A stretch of DNA of 39,971 nucleotides, from NCBI GenBank assembly GCA_017455845.1, contig JAFSYY010000013.1, positions 1 through 39,971 of the forward strand, given 5' to 3'. The position numbers and the translations under genes were made by a program. This DNA is from Prevotella sp. (lineage in GTDB: Bacteria > Bacteroidota > Bacteroidia > Bacteroidales > Bacteroidaceae). The notes below the pieces were generated by a model. The model was given only the letters and a program-made list of their open reading frames with translations. It was not told where the DNA came from and ran no database searches. This document shows positions 871 through 28,296 of the stretch, in pieces; the stretch's first letter is position 1, and each line of letters begins with the position of its first letter.

Positions 871-1188
871 TTACACCGCCACACCCGTCCGCATCACTTC
901 GCGGTAGAGCATGGAGTCTTCCTGGTCTTCCATCAGTACTGGCTCGATGAGGGTGCTGACTTTACGAACGTCGCCCGCAATGTCGGCCCACTGCTCCCAC
1001 GGGTCTGTGATTTCGCTCTCGGGGACAATGACGGCGACATCAATATCGCTGTCAGGATTGGCATAGCCCTTGGCATACGAGCCGTACATGATGACTTTAG
1101 GCTCAGTCTTGTAGCGCAGGCGAATCACTTGCTTGTAGCGTCGCACGGTGTCGAGGGCTTCTTCTCTGGTAAGCGTTCTTCTATCCAT
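871..1188 (-). CDS. MNT-type minimal nucleotidyltransferase
   Basis: The 105-residue protein has the Pol-beta superfamily nucleotidyltransferase signature GSYAKGYANPDSDIDVAV near residues 36-53: the GS motif followed by D-x-D metal ligands. This compact form is the MNT partner of HEPN/MNT pairs, in which the MNT protein AMPylates and neutralises a HEPN RNase toxin, or it can be a stand-alone enzyme. The N-terminal helix TREEALDTVRRYK fits the family. No intact HEPN gene lies beside it. Upstream on the same strand there is only a short frame that could be a HEPN C-terminus, and then a repeat array. It may therefore be an orphan antitoxin. The family call is firm and the biological role uncertain. 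Confidence 0.8.
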   Translation of the reverse strand: MDRRTLTREEALDTVRRYKQVIRLRYKTEPKVIMYGSYAKGYANPDSDIDVAVIVPESEITDPWEQWADIAGDVRKVSTLIEPVLMEDQEDSMLYREVMRTGVAV

Positions 1189-1250
1189 TGTGTCAGTTCT
1201 TTGGTTGTCTTGATGGCGTGCTCGCAGATTTCCTTTGTCAGCGACTTTTT
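1125..1250 (-). pseudogene. Possible C-terminal remnant of a HEPN toxin gene
   Basis: A minus-strand frame without a start codon reads from the edge of the 22-bp array into the MNT gene, which it overlaps by 64 bases in another frame. Its residues include KSLTKEICEHAIKTTKEL and then TQWIEERL, resembling the charged last helix of small HEPN-domain proteins. Upstream the frame enters the repeat array and soon meets a stop, so any gene has lost its 5' end. The match is short and comes from pattern memory only; it could be chance. Confidence 0.25.
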
Positions 1251-1380
1251 GTATTCAGGCCGAATACAAGTTGTATTCAGGCTGTATACAAAAAGTATTC
1301 AGGCCGAATACAAACTGTATTCAGGCCGAATACAAGTTGTATACAACAGGAATACGAAGTGTATACAGTTTTGATACTCG
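1249..1380 (+). repeat. Array A: six tandem 22-bp palindromic units
   Basis: Six contiguous units of exactly 22 bases start at 1249, 1271, 1293, 1315, 1337 and 1359. Units 1-4 carry GTATTC-N5-GAATAC or a close variant (core GTATTCAGGCCGAATAC). Units 5 and 6 are degenerate and unit 6 begins GTGTATACAGTTTTGATACT. Half-sites recur every 11 bases in alternating orientation. The same six-unit element occurs at 26935-27066 in the same orientation. Because 22 is not a multiple of three, the array is not under coding constraint. It lies directly upstream of the minus-strand MNT gene. Confidence 0.9.
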
Positions 1381-1491: not shown

Positions 1492-1567
1492 CAAGCAAGG
1501 TCAAGGGGGACTTACTTCTTTTTTCATTTTATGGAATCCAGTCCCCCGATTACCTTTTTATGTGCCT

Positions 1568-4009
1568 ATGAACAAGGAACTGATGAAAGTGTCTCTGCGG
1601 CAGCAGGCACTGTACCTGCCGCAAACAGCGGCCGATGGCCAGCGGTTAACGGCCAATGGCCAGCGGTCAGCGGCCAACGGCCAAGGGGCAGCGGCCAACG
1701 GCCAAGGGGCAGCGGCCAACGGCCAAGGGGCAGCGGCCAACGGCCAAGGGGCAGCGGCCGACAGCCAGGGCTTATCCTCCCGCACGCTGGCCCTTGTTGC
1801 AGAACTGCGTCAACTGGGCTACACCCTTTCCGAAGACTTGCTCCATGCCTTGGACGGCCTCGACGAGGCCGGCCAACAGCAGGTGCTCGATGTCATCAAC
1901 GAGGTGATGGGCACCACGCTGAACTGGGCCTCGCTGGTGCGTGGCTGGCTGACACCTACGGGCGAGTCGGCGTGGGATCATTTCCTGACGCTGCTGGCCA
2001 ACGTGGTGAAAGACGAGGTGGAGGTGCCCGGCACCACGCTGCCGTGCGGCCACCTGATACCTGAAGGCACCTTCCCCCTGGAACGCTACACGGGCTGTCC
2101 TTTCTGCGGCAAGCCTTTCCATACCGCCGATTATGTTAACCTTGGTCAGGGCACCAAACTGCGCCTATTGCGGTTGTGGGGCGACAAAGAGATGGAGGCG
2201 TTCTTCCACGACCTGCTGCTGTCGCCGGTGCCCCTGGATGCCACGCAGCGCGAGTCGCTGAAGACGCTGCTCTCCACGCACCGTTTCCCCCTCACCGCCT
2301 ATCTCCAGTCCATTGAGCAGAAAGAGACGCGCATGATGGTGATTGACGAACTGGTGGATACAGGCCATGACGACGAGGCCGCACAACTGTTCTGCTCGCC
2401 CGTCGACGTGATGCGCTACCTCTGGTATCGGCATACCGGCTACCTGCAACTGCTGGAGCCTCACACCTTATTATATATAAGAGGCAAGAACCAGCGTTAC
2501 GAATGGCATTCGCCCGGCGACATCGCCGACAGCGTGGATGCCAGGAAGCAGGAACTGAAACTGAAATACAGCAGACCCTGGTGCCGCCGCGTGGCCCGCT
2601 GGATGAACGGGCTGACGATGCCCGTAGACCAGCAACTGGAGGCCATGCACCCCAAGCGCGAGATGTGGGTGCGCTTTATCCGAGCCCTGCGCCTCTACGA
2701 GTATGCCAAGCATCCCGGCTACGAGCCGCTGGCCTTGCTGCTCGACCGCTTCTATCGCCGCGACTACAGTGTGTGGCAGGGCCACGTGGATGACTTCCGA
2801 CTGAAAAACGATGCCGAAGAGACGCTTCGCCTGTTGAAGCAGCGTCCGGGACTCTTTGCCCGCTGCCTCTTTTCCACCATGCTCACCTTCGGCCCGGAGC
2901 GGGTGCTCAAAGCCTTCCGGCGGGTGGCAGACAACGTGCCCGCCCGACTGCTGCTCTCGCTCACGGCTCAGGCCGAGATCTATTTCGACCGCAATGGCCA
3001 GCGTGTGGCACGCCCGCTGAGCAGTGTGATGAAGCAGATACCCCAACATCCGCTCCTACAGCATTATTCCGACGCACACCTCTCGCTGATGCAGGACAAT
3101 ATCAGGCAACTGTTCCTGGATGTCATGATGCAGCATTATGCCCACCTCACGCCTCCCGTCACCCAACACTCGGTTTACATCTCCCCCCAACTGGACCATA
3201 TCCCCATGCCCGTGGGCGACAGGAGCAACACCGTGCAGGATGCTTCGGCAGCCTTGCAGGGCACGCGCTTCCCCGTCAGCGGCGACAACGTGAGGCTCTT
3301 CCTGCAATGGGGAAAGGACCTGCCCGCCCAGCATCTCGACATGGACCTGAGTGCCTACATACTGAAGCACCCCACAGAAAAGACTGGCTCCGACGACCGT
3401 CCATCCAAGGCGAACGACCCAGACACCATCACCTGTGCCTATTTCAGCCTCGACGTGCCCGGCGCACGCCATTCCGGCGACATCCGTCAGATACCCGACA
3501 AGGTGGGCACGGCCGAATATATCGAACTGTCGCTGCCAGAACTGCAGCAGTGGGGAGCCGAGCGCGTGGTGTTTACCTGTAATGCCTACACCGCCGGCGA
3601 ACTGTCGCCAAACCTCATGGTGGGATGGATGAGTGCAGACAAGCCCATGACTGTGAGCAATGAGACGGGCGTGGCCTACGACCCCTCGACCGTCGACCAT
3701 CTTGTGCGTATCACTGAGACGAACCTTGCCAAAGGCCTTATCTTCGGCGTTCTCGACGTAGAGAAGCGGGAGATAACGTGGCTTGAGATGCCCTTCGACG
3801 GTCAGACGGTGCTCAGTGTCTCTGCCAAGACCGTGGATGCCTACCTGCGCCGCCTGCAGCAGAAGCCTACCATCGGCCAGTTGCTGCGCCTGCGGGCCGA
3901 GGTTCAGGGCAGCCGGATTGTGGATTCGCCCGAGGCTGCCGACGAGTCCTACACCTTGACTTGGGCACAGAACACGGCGCAGGTAAGCCGATTGCTAATG
4001 CATAATTAA
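1568..4009 (+). CDS. Large protein with zinc-ribbon-like motif and TerD-like region, unknown function
   Basis: The start is taken as the ATG at 1568; an in-frame GTG lies two codons upstream. The 813-residue protein has no signal peptide and looks cytoplasmic. Residues about 20-65 form a low-complexity ANGQGAA repeat encoded by a 21-bp minisatellite. A zinc-binding motif follows, C160-x-H162 and C177-P-F-C180, in the context LPCGHLIPEGTF. The middle is helical and rich in Leu and Arg. Residues about 610-730 contain EYIELSLPEL, then VVFTCNAYTAGELSP and a GWMSAD segment, which resemble the second half of TerD-type calcium-binding domains. TerD and RING-like modules occur together in some multi-gene stress or defence systems, but no AAA ATPase or vWA gene is visible here. 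The function is not recognised; the protein stands alone with its own promoter. Confidence 0.7.
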   Translation: MNKELMKVSLRQQALYLPQTAADGQRLTANGQRSAANGQGAAANGQGAAANGQGAAANGQGAAADSQGLSSRTLALVAELRQLGYTLSEDLLHALDGLDEAGQQQVLDVINEVMGTTLNWASLVRGWLTPTGESAWDHFLTLLANVVKDEVEVPGTTLPCGHLIPEGTFPLERYTGCPFCGKPFHTADYVNLGQGTKLRLLRLWGDKEMEAFFHDLLLSPVPLDATQRESLKTLLSTHRFPLTAYLQSIEQKETRMMVIDELVDTGHDDEAAQLFCSPVDVMRYLWYRHTGYLQLLEPHTLLYIRGKNQRYEWHSPGDIADSVDARKQELKLKYSRPWCRRVARWMNGLTMPVDQQLEAMHPKREMWVRFIRALRLYEYAKHPGYEPLALLLDRFYRRDYSVWQGHVDDFRLKNDAEETLRLLKQRPGLFARCLFSTMLTFGPERVLKAFRRVADNVPARLLLSLTAQAEIYFDRNGQRVARPLSSVMKQIPQHPLLQHYSDAHLSLMQDNIRQLFLDVMMQHYAHLTPPVTQHSVYISPQLDHIPMPVGDRSNTVQDASAALQGTRFPVSGDNVRLFLQWGKDLPAQHLDMDLSAYILKHPTEKTGSDDRPSKANDPDTITCAYFSLDVPGARHSGDIRQIPDKVGTAEYIELSLPELQQWGAERVVFTCNAYTAGELSPNLMVGWMSADKPMTVSNETGVAYDPSTVDHLVRITETNLAKGLIFGVLDVEKREITWLEMPFDGQTVLSVSAKTVDAYLRRLQQKPTIGQLLRLRAEVQGSRIVDSPEAADESYTLTWAQNTAQVSRLLMHN
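1669..1752 (+). repeat. 21-bp coding minisatellite, four identical copies
   Basis: Four perfect copies of a 21-base unit (starting AGCGGCCAACGGCC) sit head to tail. Diverged relatives lie on both sides from about 1627 to 1770, several with a TGGCCA core. The unit is a multiple of three, so copy number can change without shifting the frame; each copy adds one ANGQGAA heptapeptide. Confidence 0.9.
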
Positions 4010-12646: not shown

Positions 12647-14776
12647 ATGAGTAAGTTTAAGAAAGATAAGGTGTTGCCGCGCTATCTCACTATTGCGGTG
12701 TTGCTGACCCTGATAGGAGTTGCTGTGGTGTTCAAGGCAGGCTATACGATGACTGCCAAGAAGAGTTATTGGGAGACCGTGGCCAACAAACTGAAGAGCG
12801 ACAGCGACAGTGTGCGTCCCAACCGAGGGAATATCCTCAGTTGCGACGGACAGTTGCTGGCCAGCAGCATACCCGAATACAAGATATTCATGGACTACCA
12901 GGCCGGTGGCAACAGCGACACGGCATGGGTGCGTAAGCGCGACAGCATCTGGTATGCCGACCTTGACAGCCTGTGCCGGGGTCTGAGCGTCATCTTCCCC
13001 GGACGCTCGGCCGATGAGTTTAAGGCGCGTCTGGAGGAAGGCAAGCACAAGGTGCTGAGTAATGGCAGCGTGGGGGCCCGTCACTGGGCCGTGTGGCCGC
13101 GCCGCATCAGTTACAACACCTATCGCGAGGTTCAGCAGTTGCCTTTCTTCAACTTGCCCACCCATAAGGGCGGCTTCCATGCGGAGAAGTTCGAGGCCCG
13201 CCGTCGTCCGTTCGGTTCACTGGCCGAGCGTACCATTGGCGATATACGCTCTTTTGAGGGCGGCAAAGATACGGCCCGCTTCGGCATAGAACTCTCTTAC
13301 GACTCCATCCTGCGCGGCAAGTGTGGCATAGAGCGCAAGCAGAAGGTGCTCAACAAGGTGGTGCCCTTCACCGTGACACCGCCCGTCGATGGCAGCGACA
13401 TCGTGACCACGATCGATGTGGGCATGCAGGATCTGGCCGAACAGGCTTTGATAGAGGGACTGAAGAAATGGGATGCCTCCATGGGCGTGACCATTCTGAT
13501 GGAGGTGAAGACAGGCGACGTGAAAGCCATTGTGAACATGCGTCGTAGCGACAATGGTGAGTATTACGAGCGGTTCAACGATGCCATCAGTTACCGTTGC
13601 GAGCCGGGTTCGGTGTTCAAAGTCGCCTCCTTCCTCGTGGCTCTCGACGACGGGGTGGTAGATACCAGTTATGTCATCCATACCGGTTGCGGCATCATGA
13701 AGATGCATGGTGCCAACATGAAGGACCACAACTGGCATCGCGGCGGCTATGGCGACATCAACGTAGCGCGGGCCCTGGAGGTGAGTTCGAATATCGGCGT
13801 GAGTTACGTCATCGACAATTTCTATGGCTCTAACCCCACGAAATATGTGGAGGGGCTTTACCGCGTGGGCATCGGCCAGGACCTGAAACTGCCCATCGTG
13901 GGTTATCTGCCGCCGAAGATACGTATGCCGGACACGAAGACCACCAACAAAGCCCTCTATTGGAGCAAGACCACGCTGCCCTGGATGTCGATAGGCTACG
14001 AGACGCAGATAGCCCCCATCAATACTGTGACCTTCTATAATGCCATTGCCAACAACGGCCGTATGATGCGCCCCCGGTTTGTGAAGGGATTCATGAAAGA
14101 CGGACAGATGGTTTATGAGACACAGCCGGAGGTCATCAAAGAACAGATAGCCAAGCCGCAGACCATCGCCACGATGCAGACAGTTCTGCGCCATGTGGTG
14201 AGTCAGGGTCTGGGTAAGAAGGCTGGCTCGCACTCATTCCAAGTGTCGGGCAAGACCGGCACGGCGCAGGTGGCCAAGGCAGGCGGCTATAAGACGGGCA
14301 CGGTGGAATACTGGCTGTCGTTCTGCGGCTATTTCCCCTCTGACGACCCACGCTACACCTGTATCGTGTGTATCAAGAAGTCGGGTCTGCCCGCCTCGGG
14401 CGGTCTGATGTCTGGCGGTATCTTCCATCATATCTCTGAGGGCGTGATGGCCAAGAGTCTGAAACTCAGCGTGGAGGATGCCCGTGACTCGCTCTCGGTG
14501 TTTGTGCCGGAGGTGAAGAAAGGAGATAATGCCGCAGCATCATACGTATTGAATACACTGGGTGTGAAGGGCGGCACTGATGATGCTGAGCAGCCTGTCT
14601 ATGGCGAGAAACAGATGCCCAGCGTGGTGGGTATGGGCGCTCGTGATGCCGTGTATTGTCTGGAGAGCCGAGGCGTGAAGGCCCGCATTCACGGCACTGG
14701 CCATGTAAAACGTCAGGACATTGCGCCGGGAACGGCCCTGAGTCGTGGCATGGTATGTAATCTGGAACTGAACTGA
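12647..14776 (+). CDS. ftsI: Penicillin-binding protein FtsI (septal transpeptidase, PASTA-containing)
   Basis: FtsI cross-links septal peptidoglycan. The 709-residue protein has a basic N-terminus and one membrane anchor (residues about 12-30), a PBP dimerisation region starting VRPNRGNIL, and a transpeptidase domain. All three active-site motifs are present: S322-V-F-K325, S380-S-N382 and K536-T-G538. The C-terminus (about 650-709) is a PASTA-like domain starting MPSVVGMGARDAV. PASTA domains on FtsI are usual in Bacteroidota. The start follows a GGGGGAAGATAA stretch after the AATTGAG repeat. It belongs to the dcw operon, with murE next. Confidence 0.96.
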   Translation: MSKFKKDKVLPRYLTIAVLLTLIGVAVVFKAGYTMTAKKSYWETVANKLKSDSDSVRPNRGNILSCDGQLLASSIPEYKIFMDYQAGGNSDTAWVRKRDSIWYADLDSLCRGLSVIFPGRSADEFKARLEEGKHKVLSNGSVGARHWAVWPRRISYNTYREVQQLPFFNLPTHKGGFHAEKFEARRRPFGSLAERTIGDIRSFEGGKDTARFGIELSYDSILRGKCGIERKQKVLNKVVPFTVTPPVDGSDIVTTIDVGMQDLAEQALIEGLKKWDASMGVTILMEVKTGDVKAIVNMRRSDNGEYYERFNDAISYRCEPGSVFKVASFLVALDDGVVDTSYVIHTGCGIMKMHGANMKDHNWHRGGYGDINVARALEVSSNIGVSYVIDNFYGSNPTKYVEGLYRVGIGQDLKLPIVGYLPPKIRMPDTKTTNKALYWSKTTLPWMSIGYETQIAPINTVTFYNAIANNGRMMRPRFVKGFMKDGQMVYETQPEVIKEQIAKPQTIATMQTVLRHVVSQGLGKKAGSHSFQVSGKTGTAQVAKAGGYKTGTVEYWLSFCGYFPSDDPRYTCIVCIKKSGLPASGGLMSGGIFHHISEGVMAKSLKLSVEDARDSLSVFVPEVKKGDNAAASYVLNTLGVKGGTDDAEQPVYGEKQMPSVVGMGARDAVYCLESRGVKARIHGTGHVKRQDIAPGTALSRGMVCNLELN

Positions 14777-14819
14777 TAAATTGGTAATATGTAATGCATA
14801 ATTCATAATTCATAATTTG

Positions 14820-14847
14820 TAAATCGAAAATTCGTAAATCGTAAATA
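14820..14847 (+). repeat. 28-bp exact repeat before murE (copy 1)
   Basis: A 28-base stretch starting TAAATCGAAAATTCGTAAAT occurs identically at 17880-17907 before murD. Each copy ends a few bases before a start codon. A CATAATT heptamer series precedes this copy from about 14789. Confidence 0.85.
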
Positions 14848-14850
14848 GAT

Positions 14851-16434
14851 ATGCGGCTGAGTGAATTGTTGAAGAATGTGGAGGTGAAGGCCCTAAGGGG
14901 GGCTGCCGACGTGGAGATTACCGGTGTGGATATTGACTCGCGGCGAGTTGAGGCTGGCCATCTGTTTGTGGCCATCAAGGGCACGCAGACCGACGGCCAC
15001 CAGTATATAGCGAAAGCCATAGAACAAGGGGCAGCGGCCGTGCTCTGCGAGGAGATGCCAGCGGATGTCGGCGGGAAAACCGCCGACCACGGACACGAAA
15101 GCGGAAAAACCGCCGACCACGGACACGAAAGCGGGAAAACCGCCGACCACGGACACGAAAGCGGGGAAACCGCCGGCGTGACCTTTGTACAGGTAGCCTC
15201 TACCGAGGCGGCTGTGGGGCCTGTGGCAACGGCTTTCTACGGCGATCCTACCTCTAAACTGACGCTGGTGGGCGTGACCGGCACTAACGGCAAGACCACC
15301 ATCGCCACCTTATTATATAATATGTTCCGTCGGCTGGGCTATAAGTGTGGCCTGCTTTCCACGGTGTGCAACTATATTGAGGACGAGGCAGTGGCTGCCA
15401 GTCACACCACACCCGATCCTATCGAGTTGAATCAGTTGCTCAAGCGCATGGTGGATGCCGGCTGCCAGTATGCTTTCATGGAGTGCTCCAGCCACGCCAT
15501 CGCCCAGCAGCGCATCGGTGGTCTGCGGTTTGCAGGCGGCATTTTTACCAATCTGACACGTGATCATCTGGACTATCACAAGACGGTGGAGAACTACCGC
15601 GATGCCAAAAAGGCGTTCTTCGACATGCTGCCCAAGGATGCCTTCGCCATCACCAACGCCGATGACAAGAACGGCATGTTTATGGTACAGAACACCAAGG
15701 CTACGGTAAAAACCTACAGTACCCGCACGATGGCCGATTTCCGTGGACGCATCATTGAGTGTCATTTCGAGGGCATGTATCTGGATATTGACGGTCGTGA
15801 GGTAGGCGTGCAGTTCATTGGCAAGTTCAATGTAAGCAATCTGCTGGCCGTCTATGGCACCGCCGTGATGCTGGGACAGAAACCCGAGGATGTGCTGGTG
15901 GTGCTCAGTACGCTGAAGAGCGTAGCCGGGCGCTTGGAGCCTATTCGTTCGCCGGAGGGCTATACCGCCATCGTGGACTATGCCCACACGCCCGATGCGC
16001 TGGAGAATGTGCTGAAGGCTATTCATGAGGTGCTTGATGGAAATCCTCACTCCTCCCCCCTACCCTCTCACCCCTCTGCAAAGATCATCACGGTGTGCGG
16101 TGCCGGCGGCAACCGCGACAAGGGTAAGCGTCCGCTGATGGCTCAGGAGGCTGTCAAGCAGAGCGACCGCGTGATTATTACCAGCGATAATCCCCGTTTC
16201 GAGGAGCCTCAGGATATCATCAACGATATGCTGGCCGGTCTGGATCAGAGGCAGATGAAGAAGGTGGTTAGCATTGTGGATCGAAAGGAAGCCATACGAA
16301 CGGCCTGTATGATGGCACAGAAGGGTGATGTCATCCTTATTGCCGGTAAGGGCCATGAGGACTATCAGGAGATCAAGGGTGTGAAGCACCATTTCGACGA
16401 CCGCGAGGTGGTGAGAGAGATTTTTGGGGCGTAA
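14851..16434 (+). CDS. murE: UDP-MurNAc-L-Ala-D-Glu:meso-diaminopimelate ligase MurE
   Basis: MurE adds the third residue of the peptidoglycan stem peptide in the cytoplasm. The 527-residue protein has the ATP-binding [15 protein letters not shown] near residues 139-153, and D446-N-P-R449, the motif that marks meso-diaminopimelate rather than lysine specificity. [16 protein letters not shown] and the GKGHEDYQ tail are also family features. The length exceeds the usual 480-500 residues mainly because of three tandem [10 protein letters not shown] decapeptides at about residues 75-105, encoded by a 30-bp repeat. A second insertion of Ser/Pro residues near 396 is pyrimidine-rich DNA. It is preceded by the 28-bp repeat. 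Confidence 0.96.
15073..15176 (+). repeat. 30-bp tandem repeat inside murE
   Basis: Three copies of a 30-base unit (starts 15073, 15103, 15133), differing by one base, plus a partial fourth encode [10 protein letters not shown] decapeptides in the N-terminal domain. Near identity at DNA level shows recent amplification. Confidence 0.92.
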
Positions 16435-25378: not shown

Positions 25379-26707
25379 ATGGAAGACTTTAACAAGACAA
25401 ACGAAATACTCGACTTCGGCGTTCCCGAAGAGAAGCACAGCATCATCAAGGTCATCGGCGTAGGCGGCGGTGGCGGCAATGCAGTGAACCACATGTATAA
25501 GGAAGGCATCCACGACGTGACCTTCGTAGTATGCAACACCGACAACCAGGCACTCAACGACTCGCCCGTGCCCGTCAAACTGCAACTGGGCCGCGAGGGC
25601 CTGGGGGCGGGCAACAAGCCGGAAGTGGCGCGGGCTGCGGCCGAGGAAAGCCTGCAAGACATACGCAACATGCTCAACGACGGCACCCGCATGGCCTTTA
25701 TCACCGCAGGCATGGGCGGCGGCACCGGCACAGGTGCGGCTCCTGTCATTGCCCGTGTGTCAAAGGAGATGGACATCCTCACCGTGGGCATCGTCACCAT
25801 TCCCTTCCGCTTTGAGGGCAACAAGAAAATAGACCAGGCCCTTGACGGCGTGGAGGAAATGGCCAAGCATGTAGACGCACTGCTGGTCATCAACAACGAG
25901 CGGCTGCGCGAAATCTATCCCGACCTCTCGTTCCTCGATGCTTTCGGCAAGGCCGACGACACCCTCTCGGTGGCTGCCAAGTCGATTGCCGAAATCATTA
26001 CGATTCACGGCACCATCAACCTTGACTTCAAAGATGTGAAGACGGTGCTCCAGGATGGCGGCGTGGCCATCATGTCGACAGGCTATGGCGAAGGCGAGGA
26101 CCGCGTGAAGAAGGCCATCGACGACGCACTCAACTCGCCGCTGCTCAACGACAACGACATCTTCAACTCCAAGAAACTGCTGCTCAACATTTCGTTCTCG
26201 CACCAGAAAGACTCCAAGGACAATTTCATGATGGAGGAGATGAACTACGTACACGAGTTCATGGATCGCTTCGGCAACGACTTCGTCTTCAAGTGGGGCG
26301 TGGCCGTGGACCCCGAACTAGGCAAGCGTGTGAAGGTAACCATCCTGGCCACCGGCTTTGGTATGCAGAACGTGGACGGCATGGAGGAGCGCATGCTGCG
26401 CCAGCAGACCAAGGAGGATGCCAACCGCCTGGCCGAGGAGCAGGAGCGGGCTGCCAAGCGCGAGGAGCGCCGCGGCCATTTCTATGGCGACAGCGACTCT
26501 GCCAAGCGCTATAAGCGTCGCCCCAACATCTATATCTTCAGCCAGGAGGATCTCGACAACGACGATGTGATCTCGGCTGTGGAACAGACGCCCACCTATA
26601 AGCGCACCCGCGAGATACTGGCCAGCATCGGCAGTCAGAACACGCCTGAAGAGCCGCACCACACCGACGCGCCCGAGGTGACGCAGGGTGTCATCAGTTT
26701 TGTGTAA
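25379..26707 (+). CDS. ftsZ: Cell division GTPase FtsZ
   Basis: FtsZ is the tubulin-like GTPase that forms the Z ring. The 442-residue protein has IKVIGVGGGGGNAVNHMY near residues 23-40, the signature GMGGGTGTGAAPVIA near 112-126, TIPFRFEG near 140-147, and NNERLREIYPDLSFLDAF with the T7 Asp region near 172-189. After the core (about residue 330) comes a charged linker rich in Glu and Arg, a conserved-looking KRRPNIYIFSQEDLDNDDV block, and the final PEVTQGVISFV. The 3' end is duplicated just downstream (26714-26760). It is the last gene of the dcw cluster, and a terminator follows. Confidence 0.97.
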   Translation: MEDFNKTNEILDFGVPEEKHSIIKVIGVGGGGGNAVNHMYKEGIHDVTFVVCNTDNQALNDSPVPVKLQLGREGLGAGNKPEVARAAAEESLQDIRNMLNDGTRMAFITAGMGGGTGTGAAPVIARVSKEMDILTVGIVTIPFRFEGNKKIDQALDGVEEMAKHVDALLVINNERLREIYPDLSFLDAFGKADDTLSVAAKSIAEIITIHGTINLDFKDVKTVLQDGGVAIMSTGYGEGEDRVKKAIDDALNSPLLNDNDIFNSKKLLLNISFSHQKDSKDNFMMEEMNYVHEFMDRFGNDFVFKWGVAVDPELGKRVKVTILATGFGMQNVDGMEERMLRQQTKEDANRLAEEQERAAKREERRGHFYGDSDSAKRYKRRPNIYIFSQEDLDNDDVISAVEQTPTYKRTREILASIGSQNTPEEPHHTDAPEVTQGVISFV

Positions 26708-26760
26708 TCACCAACGCGCCCGAGGTGACGCAGGGTGTCATCAGTTTTGTGTAATCACCA
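26667..26760 (+). repeat. Perfect 47-bp tandem duplication of the ftsZ 3' end
   Basis: Bases 26667-26713, covering the last 13 ftsZ codons, the stop codon and 6 further bases, are repeated without mismatch at 26714-26760. The second copy lies after the stop and is not translated in frame (47 is not a multiple of three). The lack of any difference indicates a recent event. Confidence 0.95.
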
Positions 26761-26784
26761 ATCGGACTTTCCGACCTGCAAATG

Positions 26785-26824
26785 AAACTGGCCTATTTAC
26801 GTCGCGAACGAGGCCGGTTTTTTC
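26785..26824 (+). terminator. Intrinsic terminator of the dcw operon
   Basis: AAACTGGCCT (26785-26794) pairs with AGGCCGGTTT (26811-26820), with one G-U pair and a 16-base loop, and the right arm runs into six T residues. A 12-bp perfect palindrome, ACCGCTAGCGGT, follows at 26827-26838. Confidence 0.85.
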
Positions 26825-26934
26825 TAACCGCTAGCGGTCTTTCAAAAAACCAATAAAAACAAAAAAAACAAATAAAAACCGACATTCTTAGCATTGAGTT
26901 CCGGGAGTACGGAGGTGCTAGAATAGAAAAATGT

Positions 26935-27066
26935 TTGTATTCCTGCCGAATACAACTTGTATTCAGGCTGTATACAAAATGTATTCAGGCTGTATACAAA
27001 CTGTATTCGGCCGGAATACAAGTTGTATACAGCCGAAACACTAAGTGTATACAGTTTTGATACTGT
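26935..27066 (+). repeat. Array B: second six-unit 22-bp palindromic array
   Basis: Six contiguous 22-base units start at 26935, 26957, 26979, 27001, 27023 and 27045, in the same orientation as array A. Unit 2 is identical to unit 2 of array A. Units 1, 3 and 4 differ at a few bases. Unit 5 is degenerate in both, and unit 6 shares the first 20 bases (GTGTATACAGTTTTGATACT). No gene is visible between the ftsZ terminator and this array, and the flanks (26839-26934 and 27067-27160) are AT-rich and unlike those of array A. Confidence 0.9.
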
Positions 27067-27161
27067 CATAAACTGCATCGTGAAAATTCGACTGACCCTA
27101 AAAACTTCGTAAATCTCGTTAAAAACAAGAGGGAATAAGTGTTATCACGAAAAAAATATTG

Positions 27162-27169
27162 TACCTTTG
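27162..27169 (+). promoter_or_regulatory. Probable -7 box of the metallophosphoesterase gene
   Basis: TACCTTTG matches TAnnTTTG. No clear TTTG lies 20 bases upstream. Transcription from here would start near 27176, which argues for the ATG at 27181 or 27190 and a very short leader. Confidence 0.6.
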
Positions 27170-27180
27170 TGGCCGGTTTC

Positions 27181-28296
27181 ATGCATGGAATGAAGTATAT
27201 GTGGATGCTGATATTCATGGTGCTGCCACTGGTGGCCCTTGCCTACGTGGGATGGCATGTGTGGACGCTGGTGCCGCTGCCACGCATCTGGCGTGGGGCT
27301 ATCATTGCCTTTGGCGTGGCTTCGTTTCTGATGATATTCCTGAATCTGGGGCATGTCATCGACCGGATGCCGATGTGGCTGGCACGATGGTGCTACGACA
27401 TTGGCAACAGCAGCATCTTCGTGCTGATGTATATGGTTATCATCTTCCTGGTGCTCGACCTGTGCCGGCTTTTGCACCTCCTGCGCCCCGAATGGCTGCA
27501 TCAGAACTTCTACGCCACGGCCATCATCACAGGCGGACTCTTCGTGGTGTTTCTCGCGGGTAATATTATATATAATAATAAGGTGAGGGAGACGCTCACG
27601 CTCACCACGCAGAAGCCGCTAAGCAAGCCGCTGAAACTGGTGATGATGAGCGACCTGCACCTGGGCTACCATAACCCGAAGAAGGAACTGCACCGCTGGG
27701 TGGAGATGATCAACAGCGAGCAACCCGACTATGTGTTCATTGCCGGCGACATCATAGACATGAGCCTGCGGCCGCTCGTCGAGGAGAATATGGCCGAGGA
27801 GTTCCGGCGCATCAAGGCACCCGTCTATGCCTGCCTGGGCAACCACGAATACTACTCCGGCAGGCCGGAGGCACTGCTGTTCTACCGCGATGCCGGCATC
27901 CGCCTGCTGCGCGACACCTGCGAGGTGTCTGGCGACCTGTGTATCATCGGGCGCGACGACCGCACCAACCCGCACCGCAAGTCACTCGACGAGTTGGTGG
28001 CAGAGGCGAAGCCAGCCACCGGCAAATACACCATCGTGCTCGACCACCAGCCTTATCTCCTGGAGGAAGCCGAGCAGGCGGGCATCGACTTCCAACTGAG
28101 TGGACACACGCATCGCGGCCAGGTGTGGCCCATCTCATGGATCACCGACGCTCTCTATGAATGTTCCTTCGGCGAGCATCAGCGTGGCAACACCCGCTAT
28201 TATGTTTCGTCGGGCATCGGCATCTGGGGCGGTAAGTTCCGCATCGGCACGCAGTCGGAATATGTGTGCGCTACATTAGTGAAGAGTGAAGAGTGA
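27181..28296 (+). CDS. Membrane metallophosphoesterase
   Basis: The frame runs back to 27139, but the promoter box at 27162-27169 makes the ATG at 27181 (or 27190) the likely start. The roughly 371-residue protein has four hydrophobic membrane segments in its first 145 residues, then a calcineurin-like phosphoesterase domain. All metal-binding blocks are present: MSDLHLGYH, AGDIIDMS, LGNHEYY, DHQP and SGHTHRGQVWP. This layout is like YkuE/YaeI-type membrane phosphoesterases, some of which cleave UDP-2,3-diacylglucosamine in lipid A synthesis; the substrate here is unknown. The 3' end runs into a GAAGAGT heptamer repeat that also codes for the last residues. Confidence 0.88.
   Translation: MHGMKYMWMLIFMVLPLVALAYVGWHVWTLVPLPRIWRGAIIAFGVASFLMIFLNLGHVIDRMPMWLARWCYDIGNSSIFVLMYMVIIFLVLDLCRLLHLLRPEWLHQNFYATAIITGGLFVVFLAGNIIYNNKVRETLTLTTQKPLSKPLKLVMMSDLHLGYHNPKKELHRWVEMINSEQPDYVFIAGDIIDMSLRPLVEENMAEEFRRIKAPVYACLGNHEYYSGRPEALLFYRDAGIRLLRDTCEVSGDLCIIGRDDRTNPHRKSLDELVAEAKPATGKYTIVLDHQPYLLEEAEQAGIDFQLSGHTHRGQVWPISWITDALYECSFGEHQRGNTRYYVSSGIGIWGGKFRIGTQSEYVCATLVKSEE

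Follow-up and report, generated by a model that had tools for sequence, protein, structure and literature searches.

Two phased repeat arrays beside ftsZ and a nucleotidyltransferase-domain gene

The window, the whole stretch of 39,971 nucleotides of Prevotella DNA that we analysed, contains two arrays of six 22-bp units, each standing between protein-coding genes. Copy A (1249..1378, forward strand; units at 1249-1270, 1271-1292, 1293-1314, 1315-1336, 1337-1358 and 1359-1378) ends in the motif GTATACAGTTTTGATACT and is recognisable to about position 1380. On one side lies a gene for a nucleotidyltransferase-domain protein (871..1188, reverse strand; PF01909 and PF18765) whose start is 60 bp from the array, and on the other an 815-aa ORF (1562..4009, forward strand) that has no Pfam match above cut-off and starts 183 bp away. 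The 5' part of this ORF carries a tandem 21-bp repeat, CGGCCAACGGCCAAGGGGCAG (1650-1767).

Copy B (26935..27064, forward strand) is 89% identical to copy A and follows ftsZ (25379..26707, forward strand; PF00091 and PF12327), the stop codon of which is 227 bp before the array. Beyond it is a calcineurin-like phosphoesterase ORF (27139..28296, forward strand; PF00149), whose called GTG may lie upstream of the true start. The 3' end of ftsZ has a 47-bp tandem duplication (98% matches; 26662-26761) that repeats the C-terminal-tail codons and the stop immediately after the gene. Directly upstream of copy B (26766-26934) is a member of a second dispersed intergenic repeat family, R2, with further matches on contigs C11, C30, C2 and C122 of the same genome. 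An Rfam scan of the window at gathering thresholds returned two tRNAs only, and the arrays matched no curated RNA family.

Both arrays consist of GTATNC-type half-sites (GTATTC or GTATAC and the complement) that are alternately inverted, with the final half-site of unit 6 degenerate. TRF found a period of 22 bp with an 11-bp sub-period at both, and the dyad GTATTC-N5-GAATAC (up to two mismatches) occurs 11 times in the window, nine times inside the two arrays, against an expectation of 0.77 and with none of 100 shuffles reaching 11. The sequence as read, TRF and the dyad count thus agree with an earlier note on this DNA, which had described two arrays of alternating half-sites with a strict 11-bp period. 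Copy B repeats the unit number, order and orientation of copy A, degenerate units 5 and 6 included, as that note had also claimed, and its statement that CRISPR spacers are absent stands, the units being contiguous without unique spacers between repeats. Its description of six 22-bp palindromic units needs to be divided: the 11-bp spacing of the GTATNC half-sites is strict, but the units are not strict palindromes. Among the 38 copies described below, one pair is missing from unit 2 (GTATTC...GTATAC) in 34, from unit 5 (GTATAC...GAATAC) in all 38 and from unit 3 in 15.

A dispersed intergenic element of fixed order

The genome from which the window comes (G000) is a draft of 2,433,443 bases in 124 contigs and is 68.14% complete. 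Searching it with the 130-bp element yielded 84 matched pieces, and the whole or nearly whole element occupies about 38 places (reverse-strand pieces of the same arrays left out). Short fragments lie besides on C122, on C56 and beside the copy on C76. A two-unit pattern had 123 forward matches in this genome, and its reversed control had none. The element is therefore far from confined to the two copies in the window.

For comparison between copies, matches were extended to 130 bases without internal gaps, and one copy (C75:65677) was shifted by one base by hand. Compared pairwise, the 38 copies are on average 86.6% identical (range 68-96%). Between copies, a given unit position is 87.1% identical, versus 75.3% for different units within one copy (units 1-5), and the left end is intact in 37 copies and the right terminal motif in 31. 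This unit-position-specific sequence, recurring in 38 places, bears out the view that we are dealing with a fixed multi-copy element and not a drifting satellite. Arrays in G000 mostly hold 9-11 regular half-sites. When read antiparallel, unit 5 pairs best with unit 2 (83%) and unit 3 (81%), so that unit 5 runs in the opposite sense and the element as a whole is a loose quasi-palindrome. The copies on C30 and C36 are flanked by the same 121 bases, which lie at contig ends, and in the C36 copy unit 1 is not array sequence; one of the two may be an assembly chimera.

Thirty-four of the 38 arrays are free of any called ORF and are thus intergenic. The four overlaps comprise calls that start inside the array (C15 and C67), a low-scoring ORF (C111:22303), and an array inside a called ORF on C114 whose Pfam match begins after the array. 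A simple gene caller supplied flanking genes for 71 of the 76 flanks, five having no called gene. With the four ORF-overlapping cases excluded, gene 3' ends lie nearer to the arrays than gene starts do (median distances of 54 and 183 bp for 36 and 31 genes, respectively; p 3e-5), as would be expected if insertions near or into promoters are purged. Flanking sequence is not always unique to a copy, as other repeat families occur there repeatedly and give about 80 pairwise matches at E 0.001.

Insertion history

At two loci the surroundings of an array could be compared with those in other genomes. Copy C9:10415 (locus 1) lies between a TMEM260-like gene and a VTT gene, and these flanks occur together in 7 of 12 genomes searched, none of which has an array in the gap. 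The edge-to-edge gaps, in each case given as relative/own, are 104/405 bp in G031, 142/415 in G033, 119/423 in G035, 148/470 in G037, 133/450 in G083, 186/473 in G051 and 289/429 in Prevotella sp. HAN020. The other five genomes offer no comparable gap: the flanks are about 5 kb apart in G050 and about 2 kb apart in G058, and they lie on separate contigs in G034, G072 and G081. Copy C83:6381 (locus 2) lies between an outer-membrane protein gene and priA in a gap of about 310 bp, and the corresponding gap in six relatives (G031, G034, G035, G037, G050 and G051) is roughly 5-80 bp, as extrapolated from alignment ends. At both testable loci, then, the array sits in DNA that is absent from relatives, and the shorter, array-free gaps indicate that the element inserted and spread in this lineage, a history supported at both loci tested. 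Elsewhere the comparison was uninformative: the relatives read differ in the gene that follows ftsZ, and at guaA the two flanks match different contigs among the matches listed. HAN020 has a different repeat cluster in its TMEM260-VTT gap (GAGGACTATACTC type, by eye; G398:C45, about 14764-15053, L305).

The extra DNA at locus 1 amounts to about 300 bp and exceeds the array in length, so what moves there may be larger than the array itself. This array has a 48-bp repeat, R3, on both sides, and the whole insertion lies between the copies of a candidate 11-bp direct repeat (by eye). R3 lies at L065 5856-5904 and 6048-6095, in L056, at L075 near 13712-13760 and at L074 6373-6415; it flanks the array on both sides at two loci and lies beside a partial array at a third. 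Six copies were found in 412 kb, one of them away from any array, and the moving unit may sometimes be R3-array-R3. Another intergenic repeat, with a GTGAAGA heptamer stretch, is found at about 5758-5834 of L065, and it had many matches, spread over most of the 12 relatives searched, among the matches listed.

The best counts of target-site duplications at the array ends fall within the shuffle range for k=3-10, and the longest repeats in the 150-bp flanks are no longer than those in mismatched flank pairs (mean 7.0 versus 7.1). Terminal inverted repeats are not clear, units 1 and 6 being only 59% paired antiparallel. Carriage by phages or plasmids found no support: none of 50,697 phage and 72,556 plasmid records matched at the DNA level (E 0.01), and one exact element pattern had no match among viral contigs. 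The generic pattern of five GTATNC half-sites at 11 bp occurs in two viral contigs (L132 199-248 and L133 119-168).

Distribution in other genomes

The genus and phylum samples were drawn evenly, and a still closer relative may lie outside them. The two-unit pattern was present in 3 of 398 genomes of the genus sample, namely the own genome, G034 and G227, and the reversed control matched one other genome, G166. G034 holds a single array relic with a similar right end; G059 and G085 hold none. Of 149 genomes searched, G033, G072 and G050 gave the best full-length matches to guaA (85-86%; ftsZ 82-83%), and no match to the element was found in them. In G034, G059 and G085 guaA was matched in two pieces at 87-89%, and the nearest relative is therefore not settled. 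None of the 394 other genomes in the phylum sample had even three half-sites.

A scan of GTDB r220 for five half-sites found 40 stretches in eleven assemblies: Prevotella sp. HAN020, Solitalea agri, S. longa, Paraflavisolibacter caeni, Chitinophaga ginsengisoli, C. vietnamensis, the MAGs RUG414, RUG12008 and RGIG1804, a Vibrio and a Syntrophobacteraceae MAG. Because their places and sequences are identical, RGIG1804 seems to be the same genome as G227, and RUG414 the same as G034. Three-half-site forward matches, which are overlapping matches and not arrays, numbered 86 in HAN020, 24 in S. agri, 19 in S. longa, 40 in P. caeni, 11 in C. ginsengisoli, 3 in C. vietnamensis, 5 in RUG12008, 12 in RGIG1804, 2 in RUG414, 3 in the Vibrio and 1 in the Syntrophobacteraceae MAG. 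The reversed motif was matched once in C. ginsengisoli and in none of the other ten. Because these genomes were picked by the motif, the matches themselves are no evidence; their concentration in a few many-copy genomes is.

A profile of the 38 copies matched the HAN020 array L111 (the same place as L188) over positions 1 to 111 with 65 bits, versus 37 reversed, and L101 from position 1 with 62 bits, versus 34 reversed. Other HAN020 arrays gave forward/reversed scores of 46/33 (L131), 50/41 (L127), 48/45 (L116) and 30/30 bits (L121), and the periodic arrays of RUG12008 scored 43 bits in both orientations. For HAN020, these alignments support descent from a common ordered element. Spacer sequences differ between species, and for the more distant ones the comparison shows a common half-site and pitch only. 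Arrays contain 6-9 regular half-sites in HAN020 (some being cut by contig ends) and 12-13 in RUG12008. A variable unit number in close relatives had been named in the earlier note as evidence against a fixed element; HAN020 does differ in this way from the 9-11 half-sites usual in G000, and the close relatives sampled are without the element. In the RGIG1804 (G405) family, 3 of 10 fetched copies (L171, L173 and L178) have inverted ends of about 28 bp (by eye).

Conserved half-sites and the search for a mover or partner protein

Across the 38 copies, the columns of the GTATNC half-sites carry a mean of 1.83 bits of information versus 1.45 for other columns. None of 20,000 column permutations reached this excess; as the copies are related, this proportion should not be read as a true probability, but relatedness favours no phase, and among the 11 phases the maximum falls exactly at GTATNC. 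Such half-site conservation fits the proposal in the earlier note of a cooperative site for a dimeric protein, the bound protein itself not having been found in the searches that follow.

Of the 12 array genomes, 6 had a match to the Y1/RAYT family (PF01797) that reached its cut-off, G000 only just doing so (23.3 bits; threshold 23), and no such match was found in HAN020, S. agri, P. caeni, RUG12008, RGIG1804 or the Vibrio. The RAYT-like protein of G000 was matched in 9 of 19 genomes searched: G000, G034 and seven of ten array-free relatives (G033, G072, G050, G037, G051, G081 and G083). No match was found in the array-free G035, G031 and G058 or in any of the seven further array genomes reached (HAN020, G405, S. 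agri, S. longa, P. caeni, C. ginsengisoli and RUG12008). We therefore rejected a RAYT as the general mover on co-occurrence; for G000 alone, where a RAYT-like protein is present, it may still be the mover. No half-site dyad lies in the 2.9 kb around the gene for that protein. The protein (368 aa, L139 898-2004) has a Y1/RAYT-like region, a longer C-terminal part and a short in-frame tandem repeat, and it is found in many Prevotella relatives.

A partner gene beside the arrays was likewise rejected: no ORF family reached four of the seven locus sets, and the two that reached three are large neighbours, taken to be RNA polymerase subunits. No transposase common to the array neighbourhoods was found when the neighbourhood ORFs, as opposed to whole proteomes, were compared. 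A CBM26-type 500-aa protein beside the copy on C65 resembles proteins beside the HAN020 arrays L121 and L111 (37-39% over 184-190 aa), and the L121 neighbour also resembles a protein beside the copy on C116. These belong to a multi-copy protein family (500-680 aa; a CBM26 domain in one member) encoded within 400 bp of arrays in both genomes (L051 4116-5618, L121 1935-3467 and L111 3154-5196). MotA/ExbB proteins adjoin a partial array in G000 and an array in P. caeni, and P. caeni and Solitalea have in common a 251-aa protein beside their arrays (40%). Among the shared neighbours none looks by Pfam to be a DNA-binding partner, though three proteins (L097, L102 and L121) have no Pfam match.

Interpretation

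The element is a real, dispersed intergenic repeat, undescribed within the literature searched, and its conserved core is a helically phased half-site array. Given its copy number, fixed order, common ends, intergenic placement, absence from the gaps of relatives at two loci and half-site conservation, our leading interpretation, which we hold tentatively and at a little under an even chance, is that of a non-autonomous REP/MITE-like mobile repeat whose array docks a putative oligomeric DNA-binding protein. A noncoding intergenic repeat of about 130 bp would have spread through the genome as one unit, with enzymes provided in trans doing the copying or insertion. A dimeric or oligomeric protein would assemble cooperatively on its twelve half-sites, which fall on the same face of the DNA at one per helical turn. 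We infer this binding and oligomerisation, and likewise that the protein, or a partner of it, would drive the spread.

A wider claim is possible and distinctly speculative: GTATAC half-sites at one-turn phasing might be the signature of an undescribed trans-acting system with a DNA-polymerising protein, sporadic in Bacteroidota, in which the multi-copy arrays and spacers would be host specific and the half-site and its 11-bp pitch the conserved code.

The most serious alternative, which we nevertheless think unlikely, is that the arrays are chromosome-organising or topology sites under selection, a nucleoid protein or gyrase binding or wrapping the phased, TA-step-rich 130 bp, possibly with spread coming first and host use second. 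BIMEs of Escherichia coli are bound by gyrase and IHF. The dispersed intergenic copies, the helical phasing, the near-constant length in G000, the length of the RUG12008 arrays and the low GC content of the element (38%, versus 54% for the surrounding loci) would all suit such a role. Its lack of a match in close relatives and in the other genomes of the phylum sample argues against it, as do the variation of array length between species and the strand of the copies, which does not correlate with GC skew (17 of 30, after 8 of the 38 copies with a skew of 0.01 or less were dropped). No replication-strand polarity of the arrays was seen in G000.

That the arrays act as local regulators, whether as operator, promoter or bidirectional terminator for the neighbouring genes, is improbable. 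They do lie in gaps near promoters or gene ends, and the P. gingivalis BrickBuilt element is reported to have promoter activity (PMC4596501). However, 36 flanking genes point towards an array and 35 away, with no bias in direction, and a Pfam scan of 32 of the 71 flanking genes revealed diverse functions (among the products are FtsZ, ribosomal protein S10, GMP synthase, PriA, a trypsin/PDZ protease, a phosphoribosyltransferase and CstA), which makes the ordinary operator suggested in the earlier note unlikely. Nor was a promoter- or terminator-like site found in the array of copy A with E. coli-type consensus sequences, which do not cover Bacteroidota promoters.

We give still less credence to an RNA element, in which transcribed arrays would fold into hairpins and act as RNA, or to extrusion of the DNA as a cruciform. 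Copies A and B fold far better than shuffles on both strands (z -8.8 to -9.9), and units 5 and 2 pair antiparallel as noted above; such strong folding follows from the inversion of the units. Against column shuffles, however, no excess of pairing appeared on 12 axes (z -3.0 to +1.2 for Watson-Crick pairs, -2.4 to +1.4 with G-T) or inside any single unit, and units 2 and 5 have fixed mismatches, so the RNA of repeated hairpins proposed earlier finds no backing in covariation. Half-site conservation together with the lack of covariation on hairpin axes favours a DNA site over an RNA and points to the element being the former.

Neutral minisatellite drift, with 11/22-bp slippage arrays of repeated origin, is scarcely credible: simple direct 11-bp repeats at Solitalea, Paraflavisolibacter and Vibrio loci do look slippage-made (by eye), but the same order in 38 places, the position-specific units, the half-site-specific conservation and the near-empty reversed-motif control all stand against it.

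Small dispersed repeats shape bacterial genomes, and many have no known mover. The mobile-repeat interpretation that we prefer concerns an unusually legible family: its length hardly varies, its units keep their order and helical phase, and it is distributed in a sharply patchy way. With such architecture and distribution the putative partner protein should be findable by setting array-rich against array-free sister genomes. The binding model is directly testable with a single 130-bp probe.

Comparison with known repeat families

No description of this element, and no match to a described repeat, was found in open-licence PMC papers, among the matches listed. Among its closest known relatives in kind, PINSR of P. 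intermedia is described in the part of the source available as a 188-bp intergenic repeat of 177-184 copies without terminal inverted repeats (PMC4755523). On that partial description, with which the element was compared in place of the sequence, both are dispersed, intergenic, noncoding, restricted to a Prevotella sublineage and free of terminal inverted repeats, and neither has a known function; PINSR differs in its length and copy number, and a phased half-site array does not figure in the same text. BrickBuilt of Porphyromonas gingivalis has 23-nt direct repeats (AGAYCATARTATCCTCTCRTRTG), 1 to 22.8 per element, in a MITE-like frame whose leader and tail carry terminal inverted repeats that resemble those found on IS elements of this species (PMC4596501). 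It too is an intergenic Bacteroidota element with short tandem units in a dispersed frame (19 segments in one strain), whereas the present element has alternating inverted half-sites, a fixed unit number, another sequence and no clear terminal inverted repeat.

REPs are tagged with GTAG or CGTC and associated with RAYTs (PMC3733652). REPs, BIMEs and REPINs resemble the element as palindromic extragenic repeats in alternating orientation, but the element is a fixed six-unit array in place of singlets or doublets and has no consistent RAYT co-occurrence. Neither GTAG nor CGTC stands at the unit feet in the column consensus of the 38 copies. Like a MITE, the element is short (130 bp), noncoding, multi-copy (38 places) and intergenic (34 of 38); terminal inverted repeats and target-site duplications, which also define MITEs, were not found. 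It thus falls short of the definitions of both MITEs and REPs in one or more of the features tested, yet is of the same broad kind. Centromere iterons of the ParR/parC type are direct repeats beside plasmid par genes, with sites about 11 bp apart that bind an oligomerising ribbon-helix-helix protein. The present element matches them in its site spacing of about 11 bp and differs in that its sites are inverted and dispersed on the chromosome.
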